Positions 2 to 26,178 of a DNA stretch of 39,490 nucleotides are shown piece by piece. This DNA comes from a virus. The stretch covers positions 1-39,490 of IMG/VR virus record IMGVR_UViG_3300025701_000025; one strand, given 5' to 3'. Made by a program: the position numbers and the translations under genes. Position 1 is the stretch's first letter. The number at the start of each line of letters is the position of its first letter. Under the pieces are notes generated by a model that had not been told where the DNA came from, searched no databases, and saw only the letters and a program-made list of their open reading frames with translations.

Positions 2-1231
2 GATGGTATGTCTATGCTATCCTTCCTTGATGAAGCTATTTGGGAAGAGCTACAAACTAGCAGAGCATGGGTTATTGTAGACTACCCTGAAGTGCCTAAC
101 TATGAGTCACTAACAAGTGAACAGCTTGCTATGATTAATCCATATGCAATGATGGTTAAGGCAGAGAACGTTATTAACTGGCGTAAAGCTAAAGCAGGAG
201 CAAGCAACTCAGAAGTGCTTATAAGCATAATATTGCGATACTATGTAGCTGACTACTCTAAGAACGACTTCCATCCCGACTATGTGGACACGGTGTCACA
301 CTATTTCTTAGATGATTCTGGTATGCTTCAGATTGACTACTATCAACGTAAAGATACTAACGATACTATTGGTGTTGTTAATGGTGAGTTACGCTCACAG
401 TATCAACAATCTTTAACTACACAAGATTGGACACTAATAGACTCTAAGCAGCCTTTAATGCAAGGTGAAAGAATGCCTTTCATTCCTGCCTTTCCGCTTA
501 ACGGTCAAGTAGACCCTATTGAACCTGCTCTACTACCCTTAGTGGATCGAGAGGTAGCCCTCTACAACAAAGTTTCACGTAGGAATCACCTGCTATATGG
601 TGCAGCAACTTACACGCCTGTGGTGATGTCTGACATGACTGATGAGGAGTTTGAAGAGATTACTTCAGCTGGTCTCGGTACATGGATTCATTTACGCAAG
701 GATGATCAAATTAAAGCGCTAGAGACGCCTACCAACTCACTCTCTGACATGGAGAAAGCTATTTCAGCTACTGTTGAAGAGATGGCTAAAATGGGTATTC
801 GTATGCTTTCACCAGAGGGTGGAGCACAGTCTGGCGTAGCTTTAGAGATTCGTAATGCTGCTCAGACAGCACAACTAGGTTTGTTAAATACTAAAGTTTC
901 AAAGACTATGCAGTCAGTTATTACTGTTATGCTTAATTGGAAGTATGGCCTAGGCTTAAAAGATGAAGACATTGAGTATACGTTGAGTGCTGACTTCAAC
1001 CCTACACCTATGGGTGCAGATTGGATGCGCTTAATTACGGACTGGTACCAACAAGGTATTATTCCACGCTCTACTTTCTTGTCTATTGCTAAACAAAATG
1101 ACATTTTACCTACTGACTATGATGATGAAGAAGGTAAAGCAGAAATCCAAACAGACCCCTTAGTGGGGACTAACTCATCAAACATTGATGCGTCTATTCT
1201 TGAAAATCTAAATACAGATAGACAGGTCTAA
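2..1231 (+). CDS. Phage portal protein, DUF4055-like, 5' partial
   Basis: Probable portal: the dodecameric ring at the head vertex through which DNA is packaged and ejected. The reading frame is open to the first bases of the window (Asp-Gly codons precede the ATG at 8), so the gene starts outside it. The first visible residues already resemble an internal DUF4055 segment, R-A-W-V-I-V-D-Y-P at residues 19-27 from that ATG. I infer that roughly 100 N-terminal residues are missing. The rest has the mixed alpha/beta and charged-helix character expected of a portal clip and stem, with a long helical stretch around residues 245-300. A head-morphogenesis protein, scaffold and major capsid protein follow, the usual order around a portal. 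The stop at 1229-1231 lies one base before the next ATG, implying one transcript. The assignment rests on family resemblance plus position. Confidence 0.8.
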   Translation, partial: DGMSMLSFLDEAIWEELQTSRAWVIVDYPEVPNYESLTSEQLAMINPYAMMVKAENVINWRKAKAGASNSEVLISIILRYYVADYSKNDFHPDYVDTVSHYFLDDSGMLQIDYYQRKDTNDTIGVVNGELRSQYQQSLTTQDWTLIDSKQPLMQGERMPFIPAFPLNGQVDPIEPALLPLVDREVALYNKVSRRNHLLYGAATYTPVVMSDMTDEEFEEITSAGLGTWIHLRKDDQIKALETPTNSLSDMEKAISATVEEMAKMGIRMLSPEGGAQSGVALEIRNAAQTAQLGLLNTKVSKTMQSVITVMLNWKYGLGLKDEDIEYTLSADFNPTPMGADWMRLITDWYQQGIIPRSTFLSIAKQNDILPTDYDDEEGKAEIQTDPLVGTNSSNIDASILENLNTDRQV

Positions 1232-1232
1232 T

Positions 1233-1631
1233 ATGAAAAAGGTATTAGCGACTATATTAATTACACTATCCCTGACTGGTTGTTCAGCGTTATCTGCGCT
1301 AATTCCTGGAATGGGTGGAGGTACTAATGTTGCCGCTAATACTCAAATTGGTAAAGAGAATAATCAGACGGGTGTACAACTTGGTGATGTAAAAGAGAAT
1401 AAGGTAGAAGCTCAAGAGATTGGTAAGCTTTCACAAGCAGAAAACGCTATTGAGGCGGCTAATGTAACGATTAACAGTTTACCTCCTTGGGCACTGCTAT
1501 TAATTATTTTAGGCTGGATTCTTCCAAGCCCTATGGAAATTTATAGAGGACTTATTAATGCCATAACAGGTACTATTAGGTATGTTTTTGGTGGTATTTT
1601 TGAGTTTGTAAAATTAATAAGAGGTAAATAA
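1233..1631 (+). CDS. Small lipoprotein with C-terminal membrane segment; candidate unimolecular spanin
   Basis: The 132-residue protein starts with a lipoprotein signal: MKK, a hydrophobic stretch, then lipobox L14-T15-G16-C17. A Gly-rich and then polar Asn/Gln/Lys-rich segment (about 25-82) would lie in the periplasm. A strong transmembrane helix follows at about 84-98 (PPWALLLIILGWILP), and a second weakly hydrophobic stretch at about 106-128. An outer-membrane lipoprotein end plus a C-terminal inner-membrane helix is the layout of u-spanins such as T1 gp11 (131 residues), which fuse the two membranes in the last step of lysis. No holin, endolysin or Rz/Rz1 pair is next to it. It sits between portal and head-morphogenesis genes, which is unusual for lysis. 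Its stop overlaps the next ATG by one base (TAATG). A superinfection-exclusion lipoprotein or a virion lipoprotein is the alternative. Confidence 0.55.
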   Translation: MKKVLATILITLSLTGCSALSALIPGMGGGTNVAANTQIGKENNQTGVQLGDVKENKVEAQEIGKLSQAENAIEAANVTINSLPPWALLLIILGWILPSPMEIYRGLINAITGTIRYVFGGIFEFVKLIRGK

Positions 1632-4600
1632 TGGCTATTAATGACGATCTGTATGATAGAATCGTTCAGCACTTAGCTGATACACGACTCTATGAGTTAG
1701 AGACACAAACAAACGTGTCTAGGGGTATCAGAAGACATCAAAAGAGGCTTCGTGCCCTTTTAGTGCGAGACATTCGTGCAAATCTTAAGCCAGAAATTAC
1801 AAGAGCAATGAAGGAAATTCACAATACTACACACAATAGTATTAGTGACTTTGCATCTGCAGCAACTTCCTTTCATGCAAATAATTTAGAAAAGTCTACA
1901 GGTAAGTTTTTTAAGGTTATTAAACCAAGAGGATCAGAAGTTGCCCTAGACATTGTTGGGCCAAATATTCAAACATCTAAATCTATTAGATCGCATTTTG
2001 ATTCAATTGGCTCGGCTGAATTTCAAAGAATTCAGTCTAAAGTTAAATTAGGATTAGCAGAAGGTAAGTCTCAAAAAGAGATTATTAGTTCTGTGTTAGA
2101 CACAACGCGCTTGACAGAAAGTCAAGTAAAATCATTAGTAAGAACATCTATTACCAGAACTGAGGCGTTAGCTATCGATAGAGTAATGGAAAGAAACAAG
2201 GATATAGTATATGGATATCGTTTTACAGCTGTACTTGATTCTCGAACCAGTCCTACATGCTCCAGTCTCGATGGTAAGGTCTTTCTTCTCGACAACATTA
2301 AATATCGACCGCCTCTTCATTGGAATTGTCGATCAGCGTTGGTCCCTGTATTAAAGTCTAAAGAAGAAATTGCTAAAGTAGAATCAGATAGAATTAAGAA
2401 AAGAGCATTAGCCGAGGTAGCCGCAGGTAAACTTAACGGCGAGACCCCTAAGGTGGAAGATTATTCTCAGTGGTTAATTAGACAACCTATGAATATTCAA
2501 ACACAACATCTTGGTTCAGAAGAATTAGTAAGTTTGTTTCAATCAGGCACACTAAAAGTAGGTGAGTTCTTTACGCCAAAGGGTAGAGGTATTAGCATTG
2601 CTGCGCTGAGAAAACTAGACAATTTAAGAACAATGACTTTTCCAACTAGGCAAGCAGCTATTAGTAAGATTGACAATGATGCTGACATTATTGCAATAAC
2701 TAGACCTTATGACTTGCTTCGTAGCACAGAAAACCAAAGAAAGCTTAAAGCATTTTATATTGCAGAGTCGGATGATATTCGGCAAGCAATGTCATTGACT
2801 GACTTTAAAGGTACTACACTTGGTGGTAAGAGAGCGGTAAGGCTACGAGCCAACAATGAATTTGATGAACGTAATATGTCATTCGACCCGTTTACAGGGG
2901 AAATGAAATCTACATTACTTTATGATCCAGACCTGTCTGTTTATCAAGAACGGATTGACTTCATGAAGAACTCTAAGTTACTTACAAGGGATCAAAAAGA
3001 TTTTATCGAAAGTTTTGCCGAGAGCCTAGAAGATCAAATTAGTGTCAATAATCAAAGTGTGGTTGTAGAAAACTTACGTCTTCTTTTTGAACGGTATTCC
3101 AAAGATAAAAGTAGTTGGAATAACTTTATTGCCGTGGCTAGAGCAGAACAACAATTTAGCGTTACTAACGTTTCTAGAATTTTAGACAGACGTTCAAGAG
3201 AAAGAGCCGAGTTGTTTGCTAAATACATTGCTGGTGAAGACCCCAAGGTACAAATTCAAGGCAAGTATTATTCATTTGAAGACCTTACAAAGAATCTTCT
3301 TGATAATCAACGATTTGTTGATAGATGGGTGGATAACTACGGTAGAAGTCTAGCAAGACGAACCTACTACACAGGAAGAGCACCATTACGTAGCTATTTC
3401 TTTAAACCAAATAATATTGAGTTTAATGATCAGGTGCATAATTGGATTAAAAAGAATATTCCTGGAGCCAGGTTAGCCTATATTCGTGGACTAGATGATC
3501 TTGAAACTTATCAAAAATTGACTAAGATTATTGGCAAAGTTAAAGACTTTACTGATATTGATAAATTCTTAACTAGTAAAAAAGAACAAATTCGTAGAAT
3601 TATTGATTTTGAATTATCTGCTAGACGAATAAAAGATAAGTATATTAAAGATTTTGTAGATGAAACATTAAATGATAAGAAAGCTATTGACGTTATTTCA
3701 AAAGTATTTAATACAATTGGTGACGGTACTGCAACTGACTATGATAGTATTGCAATTAATGTTGGAAAAGTTCTTAGAGAAAATTGGGAACTACCATTCC
3801 CTTCCTACAAGCCTACATTGGCAGATTATCACGCAGATGGTTCAAGACTACTTCAGTTACTTAAAGATCAAGGTAAGATTAAAATTCAACTTCGAGGTAA
3901 AACAAGAAGAAGTGTTATTGACCTTGAAACAGGCAGAGCAAGCGGCGCTTGGAAAGATACAATATCTAGAGAAGTAGTAATTGTAGATAAGGACATGCTA
4001 GAATTACAATCTAGAAATAGACAAATTCTGTTAGCTCAACGCTTTGGAATTGTTAATAGTAGAGATAAATTATATATTAAGGCTGGACAGAAGACATATT
4101 ATGATGCTCGTGGTAAAAACACAAGTATTAGTATAATTACAAGACGAGCTTCTGCCAACTATGACAAAGTATTAGTAGACAAAGATTTTGCAAAGATGCT
4201 GAATCATACTATGAGTGTAGAATATGAGACAGACCTAGAGTTTGCATCCTTTATGGATGATGTAGTTAGGTTCAGGGACCCAAGAGGTAACTCTGCTAAA
4301 TATGATGCCATAAATGAATTCAGAAAGCTAATTATTAAGCGTGGAGACCAAGGCTATGGCTTCATGCAGACAGTTAAGTGGCATACTCAACGGGGTAAGC
4401 CATTCACAGTTACTGCTCAAATTGACGGTCGTGGTCGTGTTTATTATCAGGGCTACTTAACCCCCACAGGTGGTGAGGTAGTACGTCCCTTTTTAAACAG
4501 TGCGTATTCACGACAATTTGGTGCAGCCGAACTGAGAGAGCTAACTACACAGATAGGCTCTTTAATTGGCCCTGCAACAGAGGCATTAACTCAAGCAGGT

Positions 4601-6067
4601 AGATTAGAAATCTTTAACAGAAATCAAGAAGACCTATTAACATTAGGTCGGTTACTATTAAGAAAAACACAAAGAGATAGATCTATTAGAGAATTTCTAG
4701 AGCACCCTTTAATCGCAGGATTAGATGCCGAGGAAGTTCCTAAAATGACAAGATTAGCTTTAGAGTATGCAAGGGTACATGACCATGTTCAAGGTGACTT
4801 TGCAGATATAAAAAAGCTAGCAAGTTATCAAACCAAACTAATGATTGAGAATGACGCCTCATCAAGCGGTGCTCAGATTATTGGTTTAAGTACAAGAGAC
4901 AGAAGTATTTCTCTTAACTCTAATGTAGTACCTACAAACCAAAAGAACAGACTATATGACTTAGTTGCTATGGATACGGTGTCCGATCCAGCATTTCAAG
5001 CCATTGATAAACTAGCTGACGCAAATATTCAATGGACTGATTTACAAAAAGCTGCTAAGGCACAAAACATGGTCTCATTTTATGGTGCTGGTAGAGCTAC
5101 ACAGGCGGCAAATATTGAAGCTAAATTTGCTGGTATTCTAGAACGTAAAGGTTATACCGTTATTACTAGAGAAGAGTTAAGAACAATAAACAATCAAATC
5201 GATAGACTAGTTAAGGATGCTGATCGCATAGGTGCGACAAATACTTCTTACGGTCTAAAACAACTAAAACGTGAACTAATTGAAGTGCTAGACAACGAAG
5301 TCCCTGTGGGAAAAGAGTTAATGGCTGCTGCAAGAGATGTTCACCCTGATGTTGAAGCCTTCGTGGACAAACTTGCAAACACGCGAGTTGGTTTAATTGG
5401 CCCTAACGAGTTTAAACAAGTATCCGAGATTATGTCTAGGAAACTTGCCGAACGAGCGCCCATTACTCAAAAGTTCGTACAATTCTGGAAAGATGCAGCA
5501 AAATCATTTGTCGATGAAACTCAAAAGGTAGACATTCCTTGGGTTACATTTGATGGAAAAGTGTTGTATCAAAGATATAGACCAAAGATTCAATCTAGTA
5601 TTGAATTTAGAGACCCTGTAACAGGTCGAATGGTTCGAAACATTTACGAAGCAAAAGCCGAAGACGCTACACTATTAGGAAAAGCTAGTTTAAACAGAGC
5701 AGGAATTGGTATGGGTGTTAACGGGAATCATATGAATGATGCCTCAATTGTTCGTCAGTACCACTTATGGGGTCAACGAAACAATGTACCTACAGCAACA
5801 ATTCATGATGCTTTCTTTACAAACATTGGCGATGCAGTTAAATCTAAGGATGCCTTAAGGCTTATCTACGCAGATGCGTTAGATGGAGACACTATTAGGC
5901 AAACATTAAATGAGTTGCGTAGACAAGGAATGTCAAGAAAAACTTATGATGCGTTGATATTACGTGCCAAACAAGAGGGCTTACTAGATCCAGCAAATGG
6001 TTTAACTAGAGAAGATATTTTAGCCCCGATAAGACCGGGATATGATTTTTATGGGGTTGGCCCATGA
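1631..6067 (+). CDS. MuF-like head-morphogenesis protein fused to a T7/N4-type single-subunit RNA polymerase
   Basis: This 1,478-residue protein has two recognisable parts. The N-terminal part is Mu gpF-like (minor head protein). It has T-S-P-T-C210-S-S-L-D-G-K at 206-216, P-P-L-H230-W-N-C233-R at 227-234, and the usual tail Q-W-L-I-R-Q-P near 280. The C-terminal part has the single-subunit RNA polymerase motifs in order: D932-G-R-G-R936-V-Y (T7 421-427), motif A D1075-ASSSG-A-Q (T7 D537-GSCSG-I-Q), motif B K1143-x7-Y1151-G (T7 K631/Y639), H1367-M-N-D-A-S-I-V-R (T7 H784-SQDGSHLR), and motif C T-I-H1392-D1393 (T7 H811-D812). The Arg four residues before the motif B Lys in T7 is Gln here. About 1,140 residues follow the MuF part, close to the N4 mini-vRNAP domain. 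The only cysteines are C210 and C233. It lies in the standard MuF slot between portal and scaffold. I infer a packaged polymerase ejected into the host; this is untested. Confidence 0.85.
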   Translation: MAINDDLYDRIVQHLADTRLYELETQTNVSRGIRRHQKRLRALLVRDIRANLKPEITRAMKEIHNTTHNSISDFASAATSFHANNLEKSTGKFFKVIKPRGSEVALDIVGPNIQTSKSIRSHFDSIGSAEFQRIQSKVKLGLAEGKSQKEIISSVLDTTRLTESQVKSLVRTSITRTEALAIDRVMERNKDIVYGYRFTAVLDSRTSPTCSSLDGKVFLLDNIKYRPPLHWNCRSALVPVLKSKEEIAKVESDRIKKRALAEVAAGKLNGETPKVEDYSQWLIRQPMNIQTQHLGSEELVSLFQSGTLKVGEFFTPKGRGISIAALRKLDNLRTMTFPTRQAAISKIDNDADIIAITRPYDLLRSTENQRKLKAFYIAESDDIRQAMSLTDFKGTTLGGKRAVRLRANNEFDERNMSFDPFTGEMKSTLLYDPDLSVYQERIDFMKNSKLLTRDQKDFIESFAESLEDQISVNNQSVVVENLRLLFERYSKDKSSWNNFIAVARAEQQFSVTNVSRILDRRSRERAELFAKYIAGEDPKVQIQGKYYSFEDLTKNLLDNQRFVDRWVDNYGRSLARRTYYTGRAPLRSYFFKPNNIEFNDQVHNWIKKNIPGARLAYIRGLDDLETYQKLTKIIGKVKDFTDIDKFLTSKKEQIRRIIDFELSARRIKDKYIKDFVDETLNDKKAIDVISKVFNTIGDGTATDYDSIAINVGKVLRENWELPFPSYKPTLADYHADGSRLLQLLKDQGKIKIQLRGKTRRSVIDLETGRASGAWKDTISREVVIVDKDMLELQSRNRQILLAQRFGIVNSRDKLYIKAGQKTYYDARGKNTSISIITRRASANYDKVLVDKDFAKMLNHTMSVEYETDLEFASFMDDVVRFRDPRGNSAKYDAINEFRKLIIKRGDQGYGFMQTVKWHTQRGKPFTVTAQIDGRGRVYYQGYLTPTGGEVVRPFLNSAYSRQFGAAELRELTTQIGSLIGPATEALTQAGRLEIFNRNQEDLLTLGRLLLRKTQRDRSIREFLEHPLIAGLDAEEVPKMTRLALEYARVHDHVQGDFADIKKLASYQTKLMIENDASSSGAQIIGLSTRDRSISLNSNVVPTNQKNRLYDLVAMDTVSDPAFQAIDKLADANIQWTDLQKAAKAQNMVSFYGAGRATQAANIEAKFAGILERKGYTVITREELRTINNQIDRLVKDADRIGATNTSYGLKQLKRELIEVLDNEVPVGKELMAAARDVHPDVEAFVDKLANTRVGLIGPNEFKQVSEIMSRKLAERAPITQKFVQFWKDAAKSFVDETQKVDIPWVTFDGKVLYQRYRPKIQSSIEFRDPVTGRMVRNIYEAKAEDATLLGKASLNRAGIGMGVNGNHMNDASIVRQYHLWGQRNNVPTATIHDAFFTNIGDAVKSKDALRLIYADALDGDTIRQTLNELRRQGMSRKTYDALILRAKQEGLLDPANGLTREDILAPIRPGYDFYGVGP

Positions 6068-6142: not shown

Positions 6143-6790
6143 ATGAGTGATGATAACAGTAACGTAGAACAAGAACCAAACGAAACAGCAGTAGTATCAA
6201 GTAAAGATACTGAGGCGCTACTAGAAAAAATGGTAGAAGAACGCCTAGCTAAAGTTAAGTCTAGTCTAGATAAAGCATATTCGGAACGTGATGAAGCACT
6301 AAAGCGTGCTGTTCAACTTGAAGATGAACGTAAACAACAAAAGCTATCTGCTCTTGAGGCTGAAGGAAAGCACAAGGAAGTAGCTGAAATGAAGTTGACA
6401 GAACTTCAAGAAAAACTACGCATTGCTGAGGAGCGAAACATCAAGTTAACACGAGATGCGGCTGTTCGTGATGCACTCACGGGTTTAGATTTCCGTAATG
6501 AACGCTCACAACAGATGGCTTATCGTGATGTAGTAGACCAATTGATTCAGGATCCCGAAACGGGTGGTTGGATTCATAAGTCTGGTGCATCCATTAAGGA
6601 ATTTGTGAATGCGTTTTCTAAGGATGATGATAATACATTCTTATTTAAACCTAAAACTAATTCGGGAAGCGGCACTAGCTCTGTAGGAGGTACGCCGAAG
6701 TTAGATCCCAATAAAAAGATGTCAGACCTTTCTACTGCTGAAATTATGCAGTTAGCTGCGGCTGGCAAATTAGGAAACTTTTCACTTTAA
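6143..6790 (+). CDS. Capsid scaffolding protein
   Basis: This is probably the scaffold that guides procapsid assembly and then leaves the head. The 215 residues are strongly charged and helical: an acidic N-terminus, then a long predicted coiled coil at about 25-105 rich in Glu, Lys, Ala and Leu. A compact segment follows (about 105-165, with DxETGGW and a helix). A Gly/Ser/Thr linker comes next, then a basic patch L-D-P-N-K-K near 190 and a short C-terminal helix, which in other scaffolds is where the capsid protein binds. No cysteines are present. Placement directly before the major capsid gene is the classic position. AAGGA at 6129-6133 provides the ribosome binding site for the ATG at 6143. 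The function is inferred from composition and position, not from a sequence signature I can name. Confidence 0.75.
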   Translation: MSDDNSNVEQEPNETAVVSSKDTEALLEKMVEERLAKVKSSLDKAYSERDEALKRAVQLEDERKQQKLSALEAEGKHKEVAEMKLTELQEKLRIAEERNIKLTRDAAVRDALTGLDFRNERSQQMAYRDVVDQLIQDPETGGWIHKSGASIKEFVNAFSKDDDNTFLFKPKTNSGSGTSSVGGTPKLDPNKKMSDLSTAEIMQLAAAGKLGNFSL

Positions 6791-6821: not shown

Positions 6822-7913
6822 ATGATTGACCATACCCTATTTAAGAACGTTGCCTTGGCAATTAGCGCATACTCTGATGAGGCATACACTACTGCTAAGA
6901 AGCTAAACTCTACTGGTTTAGTTGGCACAAACAACATGATCAACGCTGGCGGTGAAAACTTCACTGGTCAAATGCGCTGGTACAAGCCCCTAGCTGCTAA
7001 CATTAACGTAGCTAGCTTGACTTCAGCAACTGCTGGTACTTATACCGACATCTCTACCGAGATTGCTGACTACATTAAGTCTGTTCGCACTTTTGGCGCA
7101 CAGCAAGTGAACCTGCAACAAGTGGTTTCACAACAAGACGGTCTGTTGAAGATCGCCCGTGACTTTGCCGAAGTACGCGGCAATGACGAGTCTAACGCAG
7201 TTGTTTCTATCCTCAAGGGTGTTGCAGCTTACGAAGTTAGCCGTGGTGCTGGTATTGTTGAATTTGATACCGACGCCGATGGCGCTGGTGTTGGTGCTTT
7301 TGTTGACATCAACGCCGCTGGTACCTTTGGTACTGCCGCTACTGACCTCGCTACTGAGCGTAAGTTGTTTGACGCTTCTGCTATTGGTGCAGCTCGCGGT
7401 CAACGCTTGTTCAAGGCTATTGGCATGGGCTTCAAGGATCATGAGCCTGACTTTATGTACATGGTTACTTCACCTGAAACAATGGCTGAACTCCGTGCTG
7501 CAAACTTGGTGGACACGACCACTGTTGTAGATGGCAACTTGGAATTCCAAACCGTCTTTGGTGGTAAGTTCCGTTTGGTGATGAGCCGTGTTGATCAGGG
7601 TAACCTATCAGCTTCTGCTAACGTTAACGATCGTTCTGTTAAGACCACGTTCCTCGTTAAGCCAGGTTCTATTGCCTTCTCTCCAATCGTTGTACCTACC
7701 CCTGTTGAAGTTGACCGTGATGCGGCTTCTTACACTGGTGGCGGTTCTACTAACGTGTGGTATCGCTACGGCTTCGTAATGCACCCAATGGGTTACGACT
7801 GGGCCGGTTCTACCTCTGCTTTTGCAACCAACACAGCCTACGGTACCGCTGGCTCATGGTCACGCAAGATGGATGCTTTGAACCTCGGTATTCTCCCTAT
7901 TTTCCACGCTTAA
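6822..7913 (+). CDS. Major capsid protein
   Basis: This is the probable HK97-fold coat protein, 363 residues, following the scaffold and preceding the head-tail connector genes. No cysteines are present. Late segments such as the F-S-P-I-V-V-P-T-P stretch near 285 and W-Y-R-Y-G-F-V-M-H-P-M-G near 320 look like beta-rich P/A-domain strands, and the protein ends with aromatic and hydrophobic residues. A clear AGGAGA ribosome binding site precedes the ATG. Codon use differs sharply from the neighbours: all 14 Lys codons are AAG, Arg is only CGT or CGC, and Asn is almost always AAC. The neighbouring genes use AAA, AGA and AAT freely. This fits the most heavily translated protein of the phage. The exact coat-protein family cannot be told by eye; gene order and codon bias carry the call. 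Confidence 0.88.
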   Translation: MIDHTLFKNVALAISAYSDEAYTTAKKLNSTGLVGTNNMINAGGENFTGQMRWYKPLAANINVASLTSATAGTYTDISTEIADYIKSVRTFGAQQVNLQQVVSQQDGLLKIARDFAEVRGNDESNAVVSILKGVAAYEVSRGAGIVEFDTDADGAGVGAFVDINAAGTFGTAATDLATERKLFDASAIGAARGQRLFKAIGMGFKDHEPDFMYMVTSPETMAELRAANLVDTTTVVDGNLEFQTVFGGKFRLVMSRVDQGNLSASANVNDRSVKTTFLVKPGSIAFSPIVVPTPVEVDRDAASYTGGGSTNVWYRYGFVMHPMGYDWAGSTSAFATNTAYGTAGSWSRKMDALNLGILPIFHA

Positions 7914-9180: not shown

Positions 9181-9726
9181 ATGGCTCATATTACATCAAT
9201 CGGCGCTGGTATTTTCTCAGCATTAGCCGTAAACACGACTGCTATCACTGACTATACGTCAGTCGATACTTTGACAGAGCTAGAAGCACTATTTGCTTCT
9301 GCTTCTGCTTTTTCTGAAATCAAAAACGTTCGCGAGTTCCCACAAGTTGGTACACCCGCTAACATCGTAAACGTACCTGTTTACGGTCAAAAGACGTCTA
9401 GCCAGATCCAAGGTCAGGCTGATGCTCCTTCACTTGAAATCAGCATTAACTACATCCCTTCAGAGTGGGCCGCTGGCACTACTCTGGGTGACGCAATTGG
9501 TGATGGTAACGTTTATGCGTTCCAATTCTCATTGCTTAACTCTAAGCCCGATGGCTTGACTGCCAACGCTGCTGGTCTGGGTACTGTTGCTAACTCTAAC
9601 TTCTACTTCATCGGTAAGATTGAAGCGTTGTTGGTCAGCCCACAGTTGACAGATGCTAACCAAGCTACCCTGACTTTGTCAGTGGCTGGTGAATTCTTTG
9701 GTCCAAGCACACAAGCCGGTGCCTAA
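9181..9726 (+). CDS. Major tail (tube) protein
   Basis: This is the probable tail tube subunit, 181 residues, stacked in rings to form the DNA channel. The pattern is beta-rich: an N-terminal G-A-G-I-F-S-A-L-A strand, then F-P-Q-V-G-T-P-A-N-I-V-N-V-P-V-Y-G and a G-Q-A-D-A-P-S-L-E-I-S-I-N-Y-I-P core. A late strand set A-T-L-T-L-S-V-A-G-E-F-F-G is typical of tube proteins. No cysteine is present. Codon use leans to GCT/GCC, AAC and GGT as in the capsid gene, a sign of high expression. Two hairpins follow the stop codon. The place between tail terminator and tail chaperones is the standard siphovirus order. The family is called from context and fold pattern rather than from a named motif. Confidence 0.82.
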   Translation: MAHITSIGAGIFSALAVNTTAITDYTSVDTLTELEALFASASAFSEIKNVREFPQVGTPANIVNVPVYGQKTSSQIQGQADAPSLEISINYIPSEWAAGTTLGDAIGDGNVYAFQFSLLNSKPDGLTANAAGLGTVANSNFYFIGKIEALLVSPQLTDANQATLTLSVAGEFFGPSTQAGA

Positions 9727-9739
9727 TTACCAGGGGACG

Positions 9740-9807
9740 TTAAAGAAGGTTGAGACCTCCCTTTAATGTATTTATGTAGGGGTATTTATCTTAGGGTAGA
9801 TACCCCT
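9740..9807 (+). terminator. Two hairpins after the tail tube gene; attenuator or partial terminator
   Basis: The first hairpin pairs TTAAAG (9740-9745) with CTTTAA (9761-9766) and AGGT (9747-9750) with ACCT (9755-9758), leaving a TGAG loop. The second pairs TAGGGGTAT (9777-9785) with ATACCCCTA (9800-9808) around a 14-base loop. Neither is followed by a clean T-run, so full rho-independent termination is uncertain. They may lower read-through after the abundantly made tube protein, or protect the 3' end of the upstream message. Confidence 0.5.
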
Positions 9808-11123: not shown

Positions 11124-14100
11124 ATGTCAGTACAAATTCAAGTACGGTCAGACTCCTCACAAGCGCAAGCAGATTTAAAGAAATTAGAAGGATCTCTAAA
11201 AGCGGTACAAAGCAGTACCGAAAGTATCAACAGATCAATAGTTAGCTTTTCCAATATCGCAAAGACCGCATTTGCGGCGATTCCACTTGCCATTGTAGGA
11301 AATAACGCTGTTAAAACAGCAGCAAGTTTTGAAGTTTTAGAACAAAGACTTTTAACGGTAACAAAAAGCAGCATAGCTACAGCAGCTGCTATGGGCGCAG
11401 TAGCAAAAATTGTTGCAAAGACGCCATTTAGTATTAGATCACTAACTGATGCTTATGCTCGGTTAGCAACAACAGGGAACTCTTTATTCAAGTCCCAATC
11501 ACAAATAGAACGTGGAATTAAAAATATCGCTGATGCAGTTGCGGCTGTAGGTGGTAGTGATCAAGAATTATTTAGAGTAGCTGTAGCCTTTGAGCGCATG
11601 TCATCTGAAGGTCGTATTACTGCAGAACGATTAAATCAAATCACAGATGCAGGCATACCTCTTACTAAGATTGCCGATCAGCTTGGTATTTCCATGGCTG
11701 AACTTCGTGATCAAAGCGAAAAAGGGACTTTAACATTTAATAAGTTTTATAAAGCATTTCAACAAATATCAGAATCTTCTGATGGGTTTTTAGGTGCAGC
11801 AGAGAGACAAGTAAACACATTAAATGGCGCAATGCGTAACTTAAATGACGCCTTTGATTTACTTTATGATCGTTTAATTAATGGTTCAGGTATTGGTAGA
11901 ATACTAATTGCAGTAATTAACTCTACTGAAAAAGCTATCAGATCTTTTACTGTAGGTCTTGATAGTCAATTAGCAAAAGGTATTGGTAAAATAGGCTTTT
12001 TCTACGGCTATACTGCGCTTTATATTGGAAAAGTTGGAAAAGTATTTACAGATACTGCTAATAAACTTAGAGACTTTGTACTACCAGATTTAGAGTTTAA
12101 TATATCATTAACTGATATTAAACTAGAATTATCTAAGTGGATGCCAAACTTAGAAAGAATTAAAACTTCATTTAGTAATTTTGGAAAGTTTATTAAAGAT
12201 GTTTTCTATAGTATTTGGGATGAGGTTGTTGGAAATTCAACGTGGCCAGATTTAATTAACGGTGTACTTGCATGGGCGGATAAGTTAGTAACGCTTATTA
12301 AATCACCAATGAAATTATTTAAAGACCTTGTTAACAATACTTTTAAAAATTTAAATGCAGATCAAATAAAAGAAAAGATTCTTTCTTCTGTAAGAGAACT
12401 AATAAAGAATGTTAAATTAGGTATTATAGAATTTAATAAATTTAAAGTTACAGTTATAGCAGCTGTTTCTGCAATTGGTGTTGCGTTTGACCCTTTACTT
12501 AGCAAGCTCAGTGCAGTAGCAAATTATATAAAAGATTTTACTAGCAATCTATACTTGCAGTTTAAACTAAACTTAAGTTATGAACAATTAGACTATAAAG
12601 ATTTATTTAGAATTGATAAAGCAGAAGCTGCTTGGGGTAAAGTATGGAAAGCCTTTAGACTAGCAGCAATTCCATCTATTTCAGATTTACAAGAAGACCT
12701 TGGTGCGCTTTATGATGTAGTTAAAAATAAGTTTGTAAACATGATAGATAGGGCATTACTTGCGCCCGAAGCCGTTTCAGGCTTCTTTGCAAATATTACC
12801 TCTAGTATGAAAGGCTTTGTCACTTCAACCTTTGAAAATGCAAAACAATTATTTAGAAACGTAACAGAAGGTATTACAACACGATTCTCAGATAGTATTA
12901 GTAGCATTAAATTAGATGTTAGAAACTTTTTAAATGATAATGATTTAAGAGATTTTGTTGCAAGTGCGTTATTATTTGCATTTAACAGCACCTTTAGAAA
13001 CTTGGCAATTATTACAATTGGTACTAAGTTCTTAATTGAATCATTTGATATATCACAAGTTCGAGCAGCTACTGATGAAATTGCTAAGTATTTTGGTTCT
13101 TTATTAAAGAGAGTTATTGATAACTTTGCAAAAGAAGGCCCCTCTACAGTTAGCAAGGCCCTTGGAGAAATTTATGATTTAATTGTAAGTTTTGGAAATA
13201 ACTTATTAAAAGAAGCTGGTTTTGCTGGCACTGGTAACTTAACTGGTTTACTTTCTGGGCTATTCTTTGGAACACTAACAGTAGCCTTACTAACTGGTAA
13301 GCTAGGCGCTTTGTCAAAAGCAGTTATGGGTTCTATTACCTCTCTTGTTAAATTTGTTGCGCAAGAGGCACTTGGCGGTTACTTTGTAAAATACTTTATT
13401 GGTGACGATGCTAAAAACGAAGAAAATATTAAAAAGGGTGAAACAACAGGTAAAACGGCAGGTAGAAGGGTTGGTAGGGCATTTAAAGGAGCCTTATCTA
13501 TTGCCTCTGCTGGTATTGGTATTGCAATAGCTCTGGCCTTTACAGATGATATTGTTAAGAATATTGGCATAGAAGATCCAATGCTTAAGCTTTTTGCTGA
13601 ACTAGGTATAACTACAGGTATCATATTTGGTACAAACTTAGTTGCTGGTATGTTAGGTACTAAGCTATTATCCTCAGCTACATGGGTTGCTTCTGCATTT
13701 AGTTTACCTGTAATTAAAGCTGCATTGACTAGACTGGCATTAAGTACTGCTTTACTTGGTGCGCTATTTCCATCTGTTAGTGCCATAACTGGTGCTGTGG
13801 CTACAATGCTAGCTGCATTAGCAGGTGCTTTAAGTCTGCCAGTAATCCTTGCAGCACTAGGTGTTGCAGCGGGTGGCTTTTTGATTTATAACGTATTCTT
13901 TGGTGAAGAGGGTGGTTGGGGTCAGAAGATTAAAAAGTTATTCCAAGAGCAGATTGGCCCTGCAATTGAATCTTTCTTTACAGGAATATTTGATTGGATG
14001 TCATCTAAGATTGAAGAGTTGGGTAAAACAATTAAAGGTATCTTTTCAATTAATTCATTTAAAGGTAAAAATTCTGATTCTGCTGGTGGTAACTTTACAG

Positions 14101-17100
14101 TAGATCCAATTTCAGGCCTTGCTACAGGCGGTAAGGTATCCGGCAAAGGAACAGGAACATCTGACTCTATTCTTGCTAGACTTTCAAATGGCGAATACGT
14201 TGTTAATGCCAAAGCAACCTCTCAAAATAGAGGCTTGTTAGAGCGTATTAATAATGGATTACCTGCTTTTGCTACAGGTGGTTATGTATCAAAAGATGGA
14301 AATGTAATTAGTAAAGCATTTCCTGAAGACACAATTCTTTCTTCATTAGTCAAGCAACTTAATTGGAGTTCTCCTCTTTCTTATATTGGATTACGAGCAA
14401 CTATTGATAAAGAGTCTGCAGGTGGTCTTGCACAAGACGAGGCACCCAACCCAAATGCTTTAATTAAAAATAAATATAAAAGTCGTTTAGAGTCTAGGGG
14501 TAAATGGGATAAATTATTTGGCGGCCCTTTTAAAAACTTTACTTGGGATGAAATAAAACATTTTGCAAACACACAAACAGTTGAATCTTTATTTAATTTT
14601 GCTTATGCAGATGTAAATAGATCAGAGAGATATAAGTTAGGAAACACAGGAGTTGGTGATGGTTATCGCTTTAGAGGTCGTGGCTGGTTACAAACAACTG
14701 GTCGTGATAACTATAAAAAAGCAGGTTTTGAAAATGATCCAGAAGCGCTAGCCTCCTCCAGCGATAATAATACTAAAGCTGTTACCACTTTAGTGCGGCG
14801 TATAAAAGGGCTAGATAATTTAAAAGATATTAATTCTATTGCAAAGGTAATAAATAGACGTATAAATCCCGGCGGCAAAGACACTGGTATTATTATAGAC
14901 AAAGCACAACCTTATCTTTCAAAATTAGATTCTTATTATAGATCAATAGCTTCACCATTTGCTAATGGCGGCTATGTTAATGATGAAGACTTTAACATGG
15001 TTGGTAGCTATGTTCGTGGCTTTATGGGTAACGTTGATGATGACTATATCAATAACTTACTAAAACAATATAAGCAAACTGGACAGTTAGAAGGTCATAT
15101 AAATACGATACGTAGTATGACAAAGGGTTATGCTAATGGCGGCTATGTTAATGATGAAGACTTTAACATGGTCAGTAAGTATATACGTAGCTTTATGGGT
15201 AATATCGATGATGATTATATAAATCAGCTACTAAGCCAATACAAGGGAACAGGTCAACTTAATGGGCATTTAGAATTAATGCGTCAAATAACGAGTGGCA
15301 AAGGAATTCCCCGTTATGAAGCTGGCGGTAGTGTTGGTTTTGAAGCTCCAGAAAAGCCAGAAAACAATTCGGAATTAAATAAGTTAATAACCGCTGACCT
15401 AAACAAACTAATTAATCAAAGAACACCAGATCAACTTTTACAGTTAAGACAGCAGGCTATTGCAGAAAAATTAAAAACAGAGTCTTTATTTGCAATAGAT
15501 TCCTTTACTAGTCAATATGGTGTTTCAGGTAAAGAGGCCTTATCCGTAGCAGGCGGGGCAGCTGCTTTAGCCACAGGTAACTTAAGCTATTCTACTGATC
15601 TCTTAGGTGGTGACTTTAAAGCTAGTCTTAAGAAGGGTAAGAGACTCGACTTTAGCTTTATAAAACAATTTGCAAATGGTGGATCTATTATGGGGCCAGG
15701 TACAGGTACCTCTGATTCTATTTTAGCAAGATTGTCTAATGGCGAGTTTGTTGTTAATGCAAAAGCAACTGCAGATAATAGAGCCTTGTTAGATAGAATT
15801 AACTCTGGCTTACCCGCATTTGCTCAAGGTACCCCTCCACTTCAAAACCCATTACCCTTTGATTATAAAAAGGGCGGTATACAAAAGGTAAATAATATTG
15901 ACTTAGATACTAAGTTCTTAATAGACGCTTTAAATAAATCAATAGATGCTAATTTATCTACAGAAGAAGGATTAACCTTACTGACAAAAGCATTTAAGGA
16001 TGCTGCATACGATGCCCAAGACAGGGGTGCTATTTCTAGGTTTGTACCTCGATCAATGATTAATAGCAAAATCGATAGCTTTGTTAGCCAGCCAGAAACA
16101 AAAGAAAAGTTTGTGCAAAGCCAATCTTATATTAAATCTATTAGAGAACAAGATATTGCTCAATTTAAAAAGGCTGTAGATTCTCTTTCTAATAAAGCAG
16201 CCCCTGCTGCACCTCAACAGAGTACGGTAGAAATAATAAAAGCAATTAACGTTGCTAGTACAAAACAAAGTGCTCTACAGGAATTAACAAATAAATTAAG
16301 CTCTTTAGGTATTGATACTTCTAAGTATAATTTAGAAAAACTATCTAAAGATTCTGAAATTTTAAATAGAACTACTACAAATGTAGATAATTTACTTAAA
16401 ACAGGTAACGATTTAAATAGGTCTCTTAAAGATGGTGTTACAGAAGGTATTGGTTTACAAGAAATTGCAGTAGCTAGTTTAAAAGATATTCTATTAAAAC
16501 AGCTTTCTATAGACCTACAAATACAAACTGTCGATCAGTTAAAAGCTATTCGTAATGAGGCTAGAGCAAACTTTACAAAAAAGACTGGTGATGCTGCAGC
16601 AGCTAATGTCCGTGGTGACTTTAATACTGGTTTAAGTTCCTTACTAAAGGGCCAATCTAATATTGGGGACTTTGGTGATACACTTTTAAATAGTATTACA
16701 GGCAATATAGTTGATAGCTTTTCAGCAGGAATCACAGAAGGTATATTTGGAAAAGAAGGCCTTAAGCTTGAGAGTATGTTTAGTGGTTTATTCGGTGAAC
16801 AAGCAGGTATAGGGTTTGATCTTTTTGGCGGTAGTCAAGTAAAAACAATTGGAGCAGGGCCTACTGGTAGTTTTGGAGACCCTCTTTATACTAAACAGGA
16901 TACCTCTAGGAAGCTTAACGATAAAGGTGAAGATGGAAAAGGTCCGATTGATACTGCTAAAAGTACGCTTAATGATGCTTTTGATTCATTTGGTGCTTCT
17001 CTTGATGGTACTTTTGCTTCTGTAACTGCTAATCTGAGTCAAACCTTTGACGGATTAAAAGAAGTATTCAAAGGGCTTCCAAACTTATTATCTGGTTTAT

Positions 17101-17468
17101 TTAGTGGCGGTGGCGGTGGACTAGGTGGCCTATTTAGTGGCATTGGTAGCCTATTTACTATGGGCAGTAGTCCTGCTAGTATGCTTGCTTCTGGTATGAT
17201 ACCAATGGATACTGGTGGAGTAGTTCCTGGGCAATTATCCGGTCAGCCGTTTCCTATCTTAGCACATGCAGGTGAGATCATTCTTAATGAAGCTCAACAA
17301 GCTCGGGTAGCTGCCTCAATAAGCGGAAGTAATAAACAGCCTAATAGTGTTACCTTAAATATTACTGGCGATATCTCAAGACAAACTAAAGCAGAAATTA
17401 TAAAATTAATGCCACAAATTTCTAGTGGTGTAAACGCACAAAATAGAGAAAATAATAGAAGGAGATAA
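11124..17468 (+). CDS. Tail tape measure protein with internal GH19-like muralytic domain
   Basis: The 2,114-residue tape measure sets tail length and leaves with the DNA at infection. The N-terminal part (about 1-260) resembles the common tape-measure domain, with V-L-E-Q-R-L, A-K-T-P-F-S-I-R-S-L and E-R-M-S-S-E-G-R-I-T. Long helices follow, then hydrophobic segments at about 700-960 that could enter the host membrane. G-T-G-T-S-D-S-I-L-A-R-L-S-N-G-E occurs near 1009 and 1526. Between them (about 1065-1240) is a GH19/chitinase-like fold: D-K-E1097-S-A-G-G as candidate catalytic Glu site, and G1180-Y-R-F-R-G-R-G-W-L-Q-T-T-G-R-D-N-Y, close to the GH19 substrate-site motif. It probably cuts peptidoglycan. 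Two 57-residue repeats begin at 1280 and 1337. The C-terminus has a Gly-rich segment and P-I-L-A-H-A-G-E-I-I-L-N-E. The ribosome binding site is AAGGAGG. No cysteine was seen. Confidence 0.92.
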   Translation: MSVQIQVRSDSSQAQADLKKLEGSLKAVQSSTESINRSIVSFSNIAKTAFAAIPLAIVGNNAVKTAASFEVLEQRLLTVTKSSIATAAAMGAVAKIVAKTPFSIRSLTDAYARLATTGNSLFKSQSQIERGIKNIADAVAAVGGSDQELFRVAVAFERMSSEGRITAERLNQITDAGIPLTKIADQLGISMAELRDQSEKGTLTFNKFYKAFQQISESSDGFLGAAERQVNTLNGAMRNLNDAFDLLYDRLINGSGIGRILIAVINSTEKAIRSFTVGLDSQLAKGIGKIGFFYGYTALYIGKVGKVFTDTANKLRDFVLPDLEFNISLTDIKLELSKWMPNLERIKTSFSNFGKFIKDVFYSIWDEVVGNSTWPDLINGVLAWADKLVTLIKSPMKLFKDLVNNTFKNLNADQIKEKILSSVRELIKNVKLGIIEFNKFKVTVIAAVSAIGVAFDPLLSKLSAVANYIKDFTSNLYLQFKLNLSYEQLDYKDLFRIDKAEAAWGKVWKAFRLAAIPSISDLQEDLGALYDVVKNKFVNMIDRALLAPEAVSGFFANITSSMKGFVTSTFENAKQLFRNVTEGITTRFSDSISSIKLDVRNFLNDNDLRDFVASALLFAFNSTFRNLAIITIGTKFLIESFDISQVRAATDEIAKYFGSLLKRVIDNFAKEGPSTVSKALGEIYDLIVSFGNNLLKEAGFAGTGNLTGLLSGLFFGTLTVALLTGKLGALSKAVMGSITSLVKFVAQEALGGYFVKYFIGDDAKNEENIKKGETTGKTAGRRVGRAFKGALSIASAGIGIAIALAFTDDIVKNIGIEDPMLKLFAELGITTGIIFGTNLVAGMLGTKLLSSATWVASAFSLPVIKAALTRLALSTALLGALFPSVSAITGAVATMLAALAGALSLPVILAALGVAAGGFLIYNVFFGEEGGWGQKIKKLFQEQIGPAIESFFTGIFDWMSSKIEELGKTIKGIFSINSFKGKNSDSAGGNFTVDPISGLATGGKVSGKGTGTSDSILARLSNGEYVVNAKATSQNRGLLERINNGLPAFATGGYVSKDGNVISKAFPEDTILSSLVKQLNWSSPLSYIGLRATIDKESAGGLAQDEAPNPNALIKNKYKSRLESRGKWDKLFGGPFKNFTWDEIKHFANTQTVESLFNFAYADVNRSERYKLGNTGVGDGYRFRGRGWLQTTGRDNYKKAGFENDPEALASSSDNNTKAVTTLVRRIKGLDNLKDINSIAKVINRRINPGGKDTGIIIDKAQPYLSKLDSYYRSIASPFANGGYVNDEDFNMVGSYVRGFMGNVDDDYINNLLKQYKQTGQLEGHINTIRSMTKGYANGGYVNDEDFNMVSKYIRSFMGNIDDDYINQLLSQYKGTGQLNGHLELMRQITSGKGIPRYEAGGSVGFEAPEKPENNSELNKLITADLNKLINQRTPDQLLQLRQQAIAEKLKTESLFAIDSFTSQYGVSGKEALSVAGGAAALATGNLSYSTDLLGGDFKASLKKGKRLDFSFIKQFANGGSIMGPGTGTSDSILARLSNGEFVVNAKATADNRALLDRINSGLPAFAQGTPPLQNPLPFDYKKGGIQKVNNIDLDTKFLIDALNKSIDANLSTEEGLTLLTKAFKDAAYDAQDRGAISRFVPRSMINSKIDSFVSQPETKEKFVQSQSYIKSIREQDIAQFKKAVDSLSNKAAPAAPQQSTVEIIKAINVASTKQSALQELTNKLSSLGIDTSKYNLEKLSKDSEILNRTTTNVDNLLKTGNDLNRSLKDGVTEGIGLQEIAVASLKDILLKQLSIDLQIQTVDQLKAIRNEARANFTKKTGDAAAANVRGDFNTGLSSLLKGQSNIGDFGDTLLNSITGNIVDSFSAGITEGIFGKEGLKLESMFSGLFGEQAGIGFDLFGGSQVKTIGAGPTGSFGDPLYTKQDTSRKLNDKGEDGKGPIDTAKSTLNDAFDSFGASLDGTFASVTANLSQTFDGLKEVFKGLPNLLSGLFSGGGGGLGGLFSGIGSLFTMGSSPASMLASGMIPMDTGGVVPGQLSGQPFPILAHAGEIILNEAQQARVAASISGSNKQPNSVTLNITGDISRQTKAEIIKLMPQISSGVNAQNRENNRRR
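14961..15172 (+). repeat. 41-bp direct repeat inside the tape measure gene
   Basis: Bases 14961-15001 recur identically at 15132-15172, 171 bp (57 codons) apart. They open two tandem 57-residue units, each reading A-N-G-G-Y-V-N-D-E-D-F-N-M-V, then a diverged helix with R-x-F-M-G-N-x-D-D-D-Y-I-N. The near-perfect start and diverged remainder suggest an in-frame duplication under selection. Confidence 0.85.
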
Positions 17469-24162: not shown

Positions 24163-26178
24163 ATGAGTACTCATGATATGAGTATTGCTAACCAAACATT
24201 CCCCGCATTTAGAGCAGATTTAAATTCTGCTTTAGGGGCTTTGGCTAGTAGCTCTTCAAATACAACAGCTCCCTCTGTTAGTTATGCGCATCAATTATGG
24301 GCAAATTCAACAGCAGGCGATACAACCTTAAAAATTAGAAATAAAGCTAATAACCAATGGGTAACAATTGGTACTATATCAGAAACTTCAAATACCTTTA
24401 CAGGTGGTACGGCAAGCTCTGCAGCAGCAGCTACATATGCAAGTAATGTAACAGTTGCAGCAAGGAATACAATAGATGCAAATCACTATATTGCGTTTAC
24501 TACCGCTCAAACAGGAAACATTTCAGTATATACTGATGCTAATTTAACTTACAACCCATCTACAAACGTATTAGCAACAAGTATTTCAGGAAACGCCAAT
24601 ACTGCTAATAGTGCAACCTCTGCCACCACTGCAGGTACCTGTACTGGTAACTCAGCTACAGCAACTAAACTTATTACAGATAGAACAAACTGGAGTACAA
24701 ATGGGGTTATTGCGTCTGTTGTTGGTCAACTAGGTTGGCAAAAGAATGGTAATAACAGTACTATTTTTGATGCTTCAAACAATACAAGTCCACTAAACAC
24801 TAGCTTAGGTACTACAGGCGCTTCTGATAAAGATGCAACATTTCAATGGGCGGTAGGTTACCCTGTACTTATGGGTTGGAATGGTACAGCCACTTATGGG
24901 GTTAGAGTTGACTCTGCTAGAATTGCAGACTCTGCAGGTTCTGCTACAACGGCTGGAACGGCTACTAATGCAGAAAATATTAAAGTAGCTGCAAGAGATA
25001 CAACTTCTGGTGAACACTACATTAACTTTACAACAACACAAACTTCAGACGGTACTCCTTTATATACAGATACTGATTTAAAGTATAATCCAAATACTAA
25101 TACATTAACAGCTGCTAGCTTTAATGGCAATGCTTCTACAGCTACTACTGCAGGTTCTGCTACTACTGCAGGCTCTGCTACTAATGCAGGTTTTGCAACT
25201 TACTCAGGATATGCTCAAAAATTAACTGTTGCTGCAGATACAGATACAGAGGATGCTACGGTTAGATACCTTGTATTCTCAGGGGATACTGCTAAAGATG
25301 ATGCACTTATTTATACAGACACGGGGCTAACTTACAATCCAAAACTAAATAAATTAACCGCATCAATCTTTAAGGGTGACTTAGATGGTAATGCAAGTAC
25401 TGCGAGTACTGCAAGTACTTGTAGTGGCAACTCAGCTACAGCAACAACGGCTACTAATGCAACTAAAGTAACTTTGGTGGCTGATAATGCAGGCGCAACT
25501 GCAAAACCAATTTTGTTTGGAGGTGCGGCCACAGGTAACCAAATTGTTTATTCTGATACCTCACTCTCTTATACTCCAAGTACAAATACTTTAGCCTGTA
25601 GTATTTTTGATGGTAATGTTTCAGGTAATCTTACAGGTAATGTTACAGGTAATGTTTCAGGTAGCTCAGGGTCTTGTACTGGTAATGCCGATACTGCCAC
25701 CAAGCTTCTTAATACAAGGACTATCAATGGCGTTTCTTTTAATGGAACTGCAAACATAACTATTGCAGATAGCACTAAGCTACCAACAACGGGAGGCACT
25801 ATTACTGGTACAACAGATAGCTCTAGTACAACTACAGGTGCCTTTCAGTGTAGAGGTGGTGTGGGGGTTTCTAAGAGTATTTATGTAGGTGCTAACGTAA
25901 CTGCATATTCAGATAAAAGGCTTAAAACAAATATTGTAAATATTGACAATGCCTTAGATAAAGTATCAAAAATAAATGGTGTGTTATATAATAGAATTGA
26001 TTTAGAAAATATGAAACAAGCAGGTGTAATTGCTCAAGAGGTTCTTGAAGTATTCCCTGATGCTGTCTCTGGGTCAACAGATACATTATATGGTGTTCAT
26101 TACAATGCGCTTATAGCATTATTAATAGAAGCCGTAAAACAGTTAAAACAAGAAGTAGATGAATTAAAAGGTAAATAA
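24163..26178 (+). CDS. Tail fibre with C-terminal S74 intramolecular chaperone
   Basis: The 671-residue fibre ends in a Peptidase_S74 domain. The motif S583-D-K-R-L-K588 supplies the Ser/Lys pair, five residues apart as in K1F endosialidase. It is followed by A-G-V-I-A-Q-E-V-L-E-V-F-P-D and a long C-terminal helix (A-L-I-A-L-L-I-E-A-V-K-Q-L). Such domains trimerise the fibre and then cut themselves off just before the Ser. The shaft holds four diverged copies of a module with Y-T-D-x-x-L-x-Y-N-P-x-x-N-x-L and a G-N-A-S/N-T-A spacer, an Ala/Thr/Ser-rich beta-helix pattern typical of trimeric fibres. The N-terminus (M-S-T-H-D-M-S-I-A-N-Q-T-F-P-A-F-R) is an adaptor segment seen in aquatic phage fibres. 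It starts three bases after the tip gene stop. Confidence 0.88.
   Translation: MSTHDMSIANQTFPAFRADLNSALGALASSSSNTTAPSVSYAHQLWANSTAGDTTLKIRNKANNQWVTIGTISETSNTFTGGTASSAAAATYASNVTVAARNTIDANHYIAFTTAQTGNISVYTDANLTYNPSTNVLATSISGNANTANSATSATTAGTCTGNSATATKLITDRTNWSTNGVIASVVGQLGWQKNGNNSTIFDASNNTSPLNTSLGTTGASDKDATFQWAVGYPVLMGWNGTATYGVRVDSARIADSAGSATTAGTATNAENIKVAARDTTSGEHYINFTTTQTSDGTPLYTDTDLKYNPNTNTLTAASFNGNASTATTAGSATTAGSATNAGFATYSGYAQKLTVAADTDTEDATVRYLVFSGDTAKDDALIYTDTGLTYNPKLNKLTASIFKGDLDGNASTASTASTCSGNSATATTATNATKVTLVADNAGATAKPILFGGAATGNQIVYSDTSLSYTPSTNTLACSIFDGNVSGNLTGNVTGNVSGSSGSCTGNADTATKLLNTRTINGVSFNGTANITIADSTKLPTTGGTITGTTDSSSTTTGAFQCRGGVGVSKSIYVGANVTAYSDKRLKTNIVNIDNALDKVSKINGVLYNRIDLENMKQAGVIAQEVLEVFPDAVSGSTDTLYGVHYNALIALLIEAVKQLKQEVDELKGK

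Follow-up and report, generated by a model that had tools for sequence, protein, structure and literature searches.

A single gene in the stretch of DNA analysed here (a 39,490-base IMG/VR virus fragment, hereafter the window) encodes a MuF head-morphogenesis domain joined to a complete single-subunit RNA polymerase (RNAP) of the T7 type. We consider it probable, at about three chances in four, that this MuF-attached polymerase (MuF-RNAP) is carried in the virion and starts infection at a conserved element, class E, after which a free phage RNAP reads a second motif class, ML, in a relay of two polymerases. With scarcely less confidence, we regard the T7-type enzyme as MuF cargo in the capsid that is injected through the long siphovirus tail and has a 31-bp promoter of its own, with early transcription independent of the host enzyme, in a large family of phages that includes some with dU-DNA. 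The fusion itself had been read from the DNA in an earlier note, and Pfam, PHROGs, and the predicted fold have now confirmed it.

The fusion gene and its polymerase half

The window carries the head-tail cassette of a siphovirus, beginning with the genes for the portal protein, a small lipoprotein, the fusion, the scaffold, and the major capsid protein and continuing through head-tail adaptor, tail terminator, major tail protein, tape measure, and tail tip and fibre genes (Table 1); the early region and the free RNAP gene are absent from this fragment. The interval between portal and scaffold/major capsid genes is the usual place of MuF, and the order in phage DSS3_VP1 is identical. Because of these flanking genes, the prediction that the fusion protein is a head component is supported.

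Table 1. Position of the MuF-RNAP gene, its parts, its neighbours, and a promoter-like motif in the window
Feature	Position	Strand	Basis or remark
Portal protein, upstream neighbour	8..1231	+	phrog_145, E 1e-45; frame open to window start
MuF-RNAP fusion gene	1631..6067	+	1478 aa; frame open throughout
MuF head-morphogenesis part	1736..2626	+	Residues 36-332 (Pfam core 132-237); phrog_241, PF04233
Conserved segment linking MuF and polymerase	2636..3271	+	Residues 336-547
Single-subunit (T7-type) RNA polymerase part	3272..6064	+	Residues about 548-1478
DGRGR motif, residues 932-936 (= T7 D421xxGR425)	4424..4438	+	Alignment
D1075, motif A catalytic aspartate (= T7 D537)	4853..4855	+	Invariant 58/58; aligned to T7
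K1143 to Y1151, motif B (= T7 K631/Y639)	5057..5083	+	Alignment; group I introns there in two relatives
H1367 (= T7 H784)	5729..5731	+	Alignment
H1392-D1393, motif C catalytic aspartate (= T7 H811-D812)	5804..5809	+	Alignment
Scaffold-like protein	6143..6790	+	phrog_206, E 1e-7
Major capsid protein	6822..7913	+	phrog_247, E 2e-26
Class ML promoter-like motif ATTACCAGGGGACGTTAAAG	9726..9745	+	The window's one copy, just after the major tail protein gene

Both halves of the protein were recognised by profile searches. Pfam placed Phage_Mu_F (PF04233) at residues 132-237 (E 9e-14, 52.6 bits, above the curated cut-off of 29.6) and RNA_pol at residues 1059-1432 (E 2e-6, 27.3 bits, above the curated cut-off of 22), and PHROGs matched residues 36-332 to the head morphogenesis family phrog_241 (E 1e-48) and residues 925-1164 to the RNA polymerase family phrog_414 (E 6e-20). 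A phmmer search of the PDB with the single sequence returned no match, T7 emerging only from profiles and folds.

The polymerase motif residues named in the earlier note were all found at the positions given, each with a T7 counterpart, and D932, R936, D1075, K1143, Y1151, H1367, H1392, and D1393 were invariant among 58 aligned sequences with identities down to 49%; G935 was replaced by Ser in five of the 58. An AlphaFold model of residues 336-1478 (37 aligned sequences, template-free, pLDDT 74.6, pTM 0.67), compared with the T7 and N4 enzymes as that note had suggested, yielded a polymerase fold: T7 RNAP matched with a VIA Z of 29.3 over 516 residues at 5.0 Å (Foldseek E 4e-18), mitochondrial RNAP with Z 28, and N4 mini-vRNAP with Z 21. 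The original description of the enzyme as T7/N4-type was thus upheld for its T7-like part, by the T7 and mitochondrial scores of Z 28-29, and less so for the N4-like part. Profile comparison gave T7 RNAP at a probability of 89 (E 2e-6) and N4 gp50 at 0.2, and hhalign against the N4 vRNAP as a single sequence found no match, though the fold search gave one. Judged from sequence correspondence and the fold together, the catalytic residues would share one pocket. The first 212 residues of the model (residues 336-547 of the protein) were hardly covered by the T7 and N4 matches and had no significant match in the PDB, and a model of residues 1-590 opened with long, confident helices and gave no Foldseek match in the PDB at E <= 0.001.

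Between the window and one relative (L003), the polymerase half had a dN of 0.14 and a dS of 1.9, a mark of purifying selection, and this half was better conserved than the MuF half. Because of the fold, the catalytic residues, and the conservation, the prediction that MuF-RNAP is an active polymerase is supported. The fusion gene of another relative (L036) contains a group I intron with an HNH gene inside motif B (Rfam, 86 bits), and that of EBPR siphovirus 1 contains one, also with an HNH gene, a few codons beyond the L036 site (E 2e-8, with a score of 40.5 bits that lies below the Rfam cut-off of 50). Homing elements tend to settle in those coding sites that are most strongly conserved, and the introns at motif B therefore fit a strong constraint on the active site. 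The free RNAP gene of the L036 phage is also interrupted by a group I intron of this kind, just past its own motif B (71 bits). Introns were located at L036:13396-14206 and, approximately, at L045:23179-24285 and L116:7951-8851.

Relatives of the fusion and the second polymerase

A search for the same fusion elsewhere had been proposed at the outset, and by tblastn relatives are encoded on at least 370 viral contigs, at full length in dozens of them and in two isolates; this recurrence of the full-length fusion in independent contigs and sequenced isolates rules out a chimeric assembly. The two isolates, DSS3_VP1 and DSS3_PM1 (Naomviridae, dU-DNA phages of Ruegeria), encode it with 48% identity (accession YP_010105321.1), under annotations that go no further than 'minor head protein-like' or 'head morphogenesis'. 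The carriers are a large, mostly uncultured group of long-tailed phages. No relative was confirmed in 84,980 bacterial and archaeal genomes, none of the 34 pattern matches there encoding one; we therefore rejected prophage carriage, and this result suggests that the carriers are virulent phages. The most distant relative, with 30% identity, was the intron-split fusion of EBPR siphovirus 1. A weak match in Macromonas phage BK-30P lies in an Autographiviridae record and was hence taken as the ordinary RNAP of that phage.

Pelagibacter phage Kolga has both a related MuF protein (31%; gp59, L105:6001-7902) and a related free RNAP (28%), with no class E above chance in its genome. The C-terminal domain of the Kolga MuF protein is not a polymerase but a zincin-like HEFAH domain, which scored below the Pfam cut-off, and the MuF chassis therefore seems to take different cargo.

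The Naomviridae isolates resemble the other carriers in having the same fusion, the free RNAP, and class E copies; they differ in that a search of eight large relatives found no member of the dTMP phosphatase (YfbR-like) family that is linked to dU-DNA, and dU-DNA is for this reason not supported as a general explanation of the fusion. A dCTP deaminase homologue is present in these eight contigs, and the window is without that region of the genome.

The free RNAP, recognised as a strong phrog_414 match elsewhere in the record, is encoded in 11 of the 15 IMG/VR records that carry the fusion, the other four being fragments of 28-35 kb, and also in DSS3_VP1 and DSS3_PM1 (E 1e-79 to 1e-131 for the 11 records, and down to 1e-133 once DSS3_VP1 is included). 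It is a separate protein of about 700-740 aa, intron-interrupted in one case. The MuF-RNAP and free RNAP families aligned weakly in hhalign (E 0.014), which makes a recent duplication of the free RNAP into MuF unlikely.

Two motif classes and the proposed relay

The class E element, AAAAAGTGAGAAAAATGACGTATCTATAAT, starts an early block to which the free RNAP gene belongs, usually after an intrinsic terminator. Across 24 distinct copies, conservation within the 31 bp came to 1.83 bits per base and dropped to 0.33 and 0.45 on the two sides. Two copies are present in DSS3_VP1, with a single mismatch at 19 scored positions, a level to be set against at least three mismatches in 60 shuffled genomes, and DSS3_PM1 also has two; in the isolate record NC_055826, class E sites lie at 35795 and 36242. 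A degenerate form of the pattern matched 103 stretches in a set of 2.9 million viral contigs, and about 85,000 prokaryotic genomes (257 Gb) yielded no match. All 65 class E copies whose position could be scored, at the 47 of 81 loci whose stretch includes the free RNAP gene (most of the others end too soon), lie upstream of that gene on the same strand, at a distance of 1.06-7.0 kb (median 2.5 kb). In the window, from which the early region is missing, no match to class E exceeded chance.

Class E ends in a perfect TATAAT, which a host sigma factor acting without a normal -35 box could fit, and the leading alternative is that host RNA polymerase reads it as a TATAAT-type promoter, while the packaged MuF-RNAP mainly pulls the DNA in, as T7 RNAP pulls T7 DNA into the cell, or transcribes some other early segment. 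We consider this improbable, if the least so of the alternatives. The conserved block is contiguous over all 31 bp, with GTGAGA 13 bp from TATAAT and no -35 box at 16-18 bp; the element is common to phages of 35% and 47% G+C, yet absent from the prokaryotic genomes searched; and the early region of one genome (G002) has no sigma-70-like excess, with 20 matches found against 24.0 +/- 5.0 expected. The length of class E, its contiguity, and its restriction to these phages favour a phage RNAP over a host sigma factor as the reader. Since class E is needed before the free RNAP exists and the MuF fusion is the only other phage RNAP seen, MuF-RNAP is the candidate reader, on the grounds of position and analogy. 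An N4-type hairpin promoter, considered because several genomes have a small inverted repeat (TATC..GATA) just after class E, was set aside because L124 and L140 have lost this repeat. Downstream of class E and ahead of the free RNAP gene, G002 (24924-25245) has two imperfect hairpins in tandem (AGAGAGACC..GGGTATGTAC..), which recur in the corresponding part of G007 with paired changes relative to G002.

The second motif class was defined by a motif search of intergenic DNA, which returned TTTACCAGGGGACGCTAAAG (promoter-like consensus form ACCAGGGGACGCTAAAG) between three and five times in each genome, in every case on the coding strand and outside the early block led by class E. Two of the genomes, G002 and G005, have all called genes on one strand and, by our reading, end repeats of 107 and 127 bases, which close them at 76.8 and 77.7 kb; a looser match to the ML pattern inside the free RNAP coding sequence, once in each of these two, is probably chance. 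AT-rich genomes have one ML site directly after the free RNAP gene, and this copy is a variant, with GGGTACGCTAAAGCAC for GGGGACGCTAAAGAGA, common to four AT-rich genomes (L123:8539-8562, L109:8509-8532). In DSS3_VP1, three copies of an ML-related motif, ATAGGGTACGTTAAAG, immediately precede portal in the portal-MuF-RNAP pair, and the interval from the class E copies to the free RNAP gene has none. The single copy in the window has two mismatches, none of 100 shuffles having one, and G002 has an ML copy in the same head-tail gene region. Position and analogy point to the free RNAP as the presumptive reader of class ML.

In the relay that we propose, MuF-RNAP would be made late, together with the head genes, and its MuF part would build it into the capsid near the portal, as MuF biology and the gene order suggest. 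The enzyme would leave with the DNA at infection, a step that, like packaging, we infer, and once injected it would start transcription at class E, whose location and conservation are observed and whose reader is the putative part. The early block led by class E would then yield the free T7-type RNAP, which would read class ML and so provide MuF-RNAP for the next virion, and the early programme would be independent of host RNA polymerase. Relatives have the features of such a relay, namely a second, non-structural RNAP and two motif classes, one early and one middle/late. The second RNAP, the phage-restricted class E, and the placement of ML together support the earlier proposal that the fusion solves the first-transcription problem. 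At about 165 kDa, MuF-RNAP would have to pass through a long tail; the N4 vRNAP is larger, so this size is not prohibitive for ejection. EBPR siphovirus 1 counts against the relay, with DHRAR where DxxGR is expected, no class E above chance, and no second RNAP found in its partial genome.

MuF-RNAP might instead act in the infection that produces it, working late in or on procapsids for instance, and not be needed at the start. We hold this to be less likely again: the fusion is indeed encoded among late genes, but a dedicated free RNAP, equipped with motifs of its own, already comes ahead of them, and the polyvalent-protein survey predicts packaging and injection for MuF-fused enzymes as a rule (PMC5512222). 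That the head protein bears a polymerase-derived but catalytically dead C-terminal part, as the weak match to known RNAPs (RNA_pol, 27 bits) might hint, is very improbable, given the catalytic residues kept in all 58 sequences, the better conservation of the polymerase half, and the introns in motif B of two relatives.

Relation to known systems and other genes of the window

Thermus phage P23-45 has a virion RNAP fused to the tape measure, gp96, and a free RNAP, gp64, shown by experiment to use an AT-rich and a GC-rich motif, respectively, and the AT-rich motif is missing from those P23-45 relatives that do not have the fusion (PMC10770324). The likeness to a two-polymerase relay of MuF-RNAP and free RNAP lies in the long-tailed phage, the virion RNAP fused to a structural protein, the second, free RNAP, and the logic of two motifs, known here from sequence; in P23-45, the AT-rich motif precedes the pre-early genes and the GC-rich motif serves the free enzyme. 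The P23-45 enzyme is, however, of the two-barrel (cellular) type and sits on the tail tape measure, whereas that of the window is a T7-type, right-hand RNAP on MuF, in another phage family. N4 gp50 (Schitoviridae) is also an enzyme of T7 fold, packaged in the virion as we propose for MuF-RNAP and followed by a second phage RNAP, but it has about 3,500 aa and belongs to a podovirus, without MuF, in contrast to the 1478 aa found here and a fold that resembles T7 (Z 29) more than N4 (Z 21). The polyvalent-protein survey confines virion RNAPs of the N4 kind to N4-like phages or prophages (PMC5512222). MuF effector and toxin fusions (SPP1 gp7, Mu gpF) share the portal-MuF-capsid chassis with a C-terminal enzyme; they differ in cargo, which in the parts of the two sources consulted comprises RNases, ppGpp synthetases, and peptidases, among others, and no polymerase (PMC3482391, PMC5512222).

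We found no description of MuF-RNAP in the literature searched, and an earlier mention in Rihtman 2021 (DSS3_VP1) is possible. The initial claim that the arrangement had not been described holds for the MuF route and the type of enzyme and fails for the principle, which is not new because a virion RNAP fused to a structural protein is already known from P23-45 (PMC10770324). The MuF route and class E appear to be undescribed, as does a siphovirus head with a T7-type enzyme.

If true, the proposal would add to N4 and the P23-45 tape measure a third way for phages to carry in transcription machinery of their own, and it would speak for MuF as a cargo slot of general use in the phage head. MuF-RNAP and class E make a concrete enzyme/promoter pair to test in cultured phages with uracil DNA. 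The other dU-DNA phages known to us package multisubunit RNAPs, and MuF-RNAP might meet the same need with a small enzyme. There may also be potential applications in vitro, for which MuF-RNAP is a possible new compact, promoter-specific polymerase of the T7 type.

Three further genes of the window deserve mention. The interval between portal and MuF (1233-1631) holds a 132-aa lipoprotein-like ORF with matches to LPAM_1 and to the Rz-like spanin family phrog_1804 (E 2e-9), an odd site for a lysis gene. The 2114-aa tape measure (11124-17468) includes endolysin-like stretches at residues 953-1072 (phrog_971) and 1076-1204 (phrog_181). Within the tail-gene region, a 2219-aa ORF (27108-33767) has no Pfam match at E 0.1.
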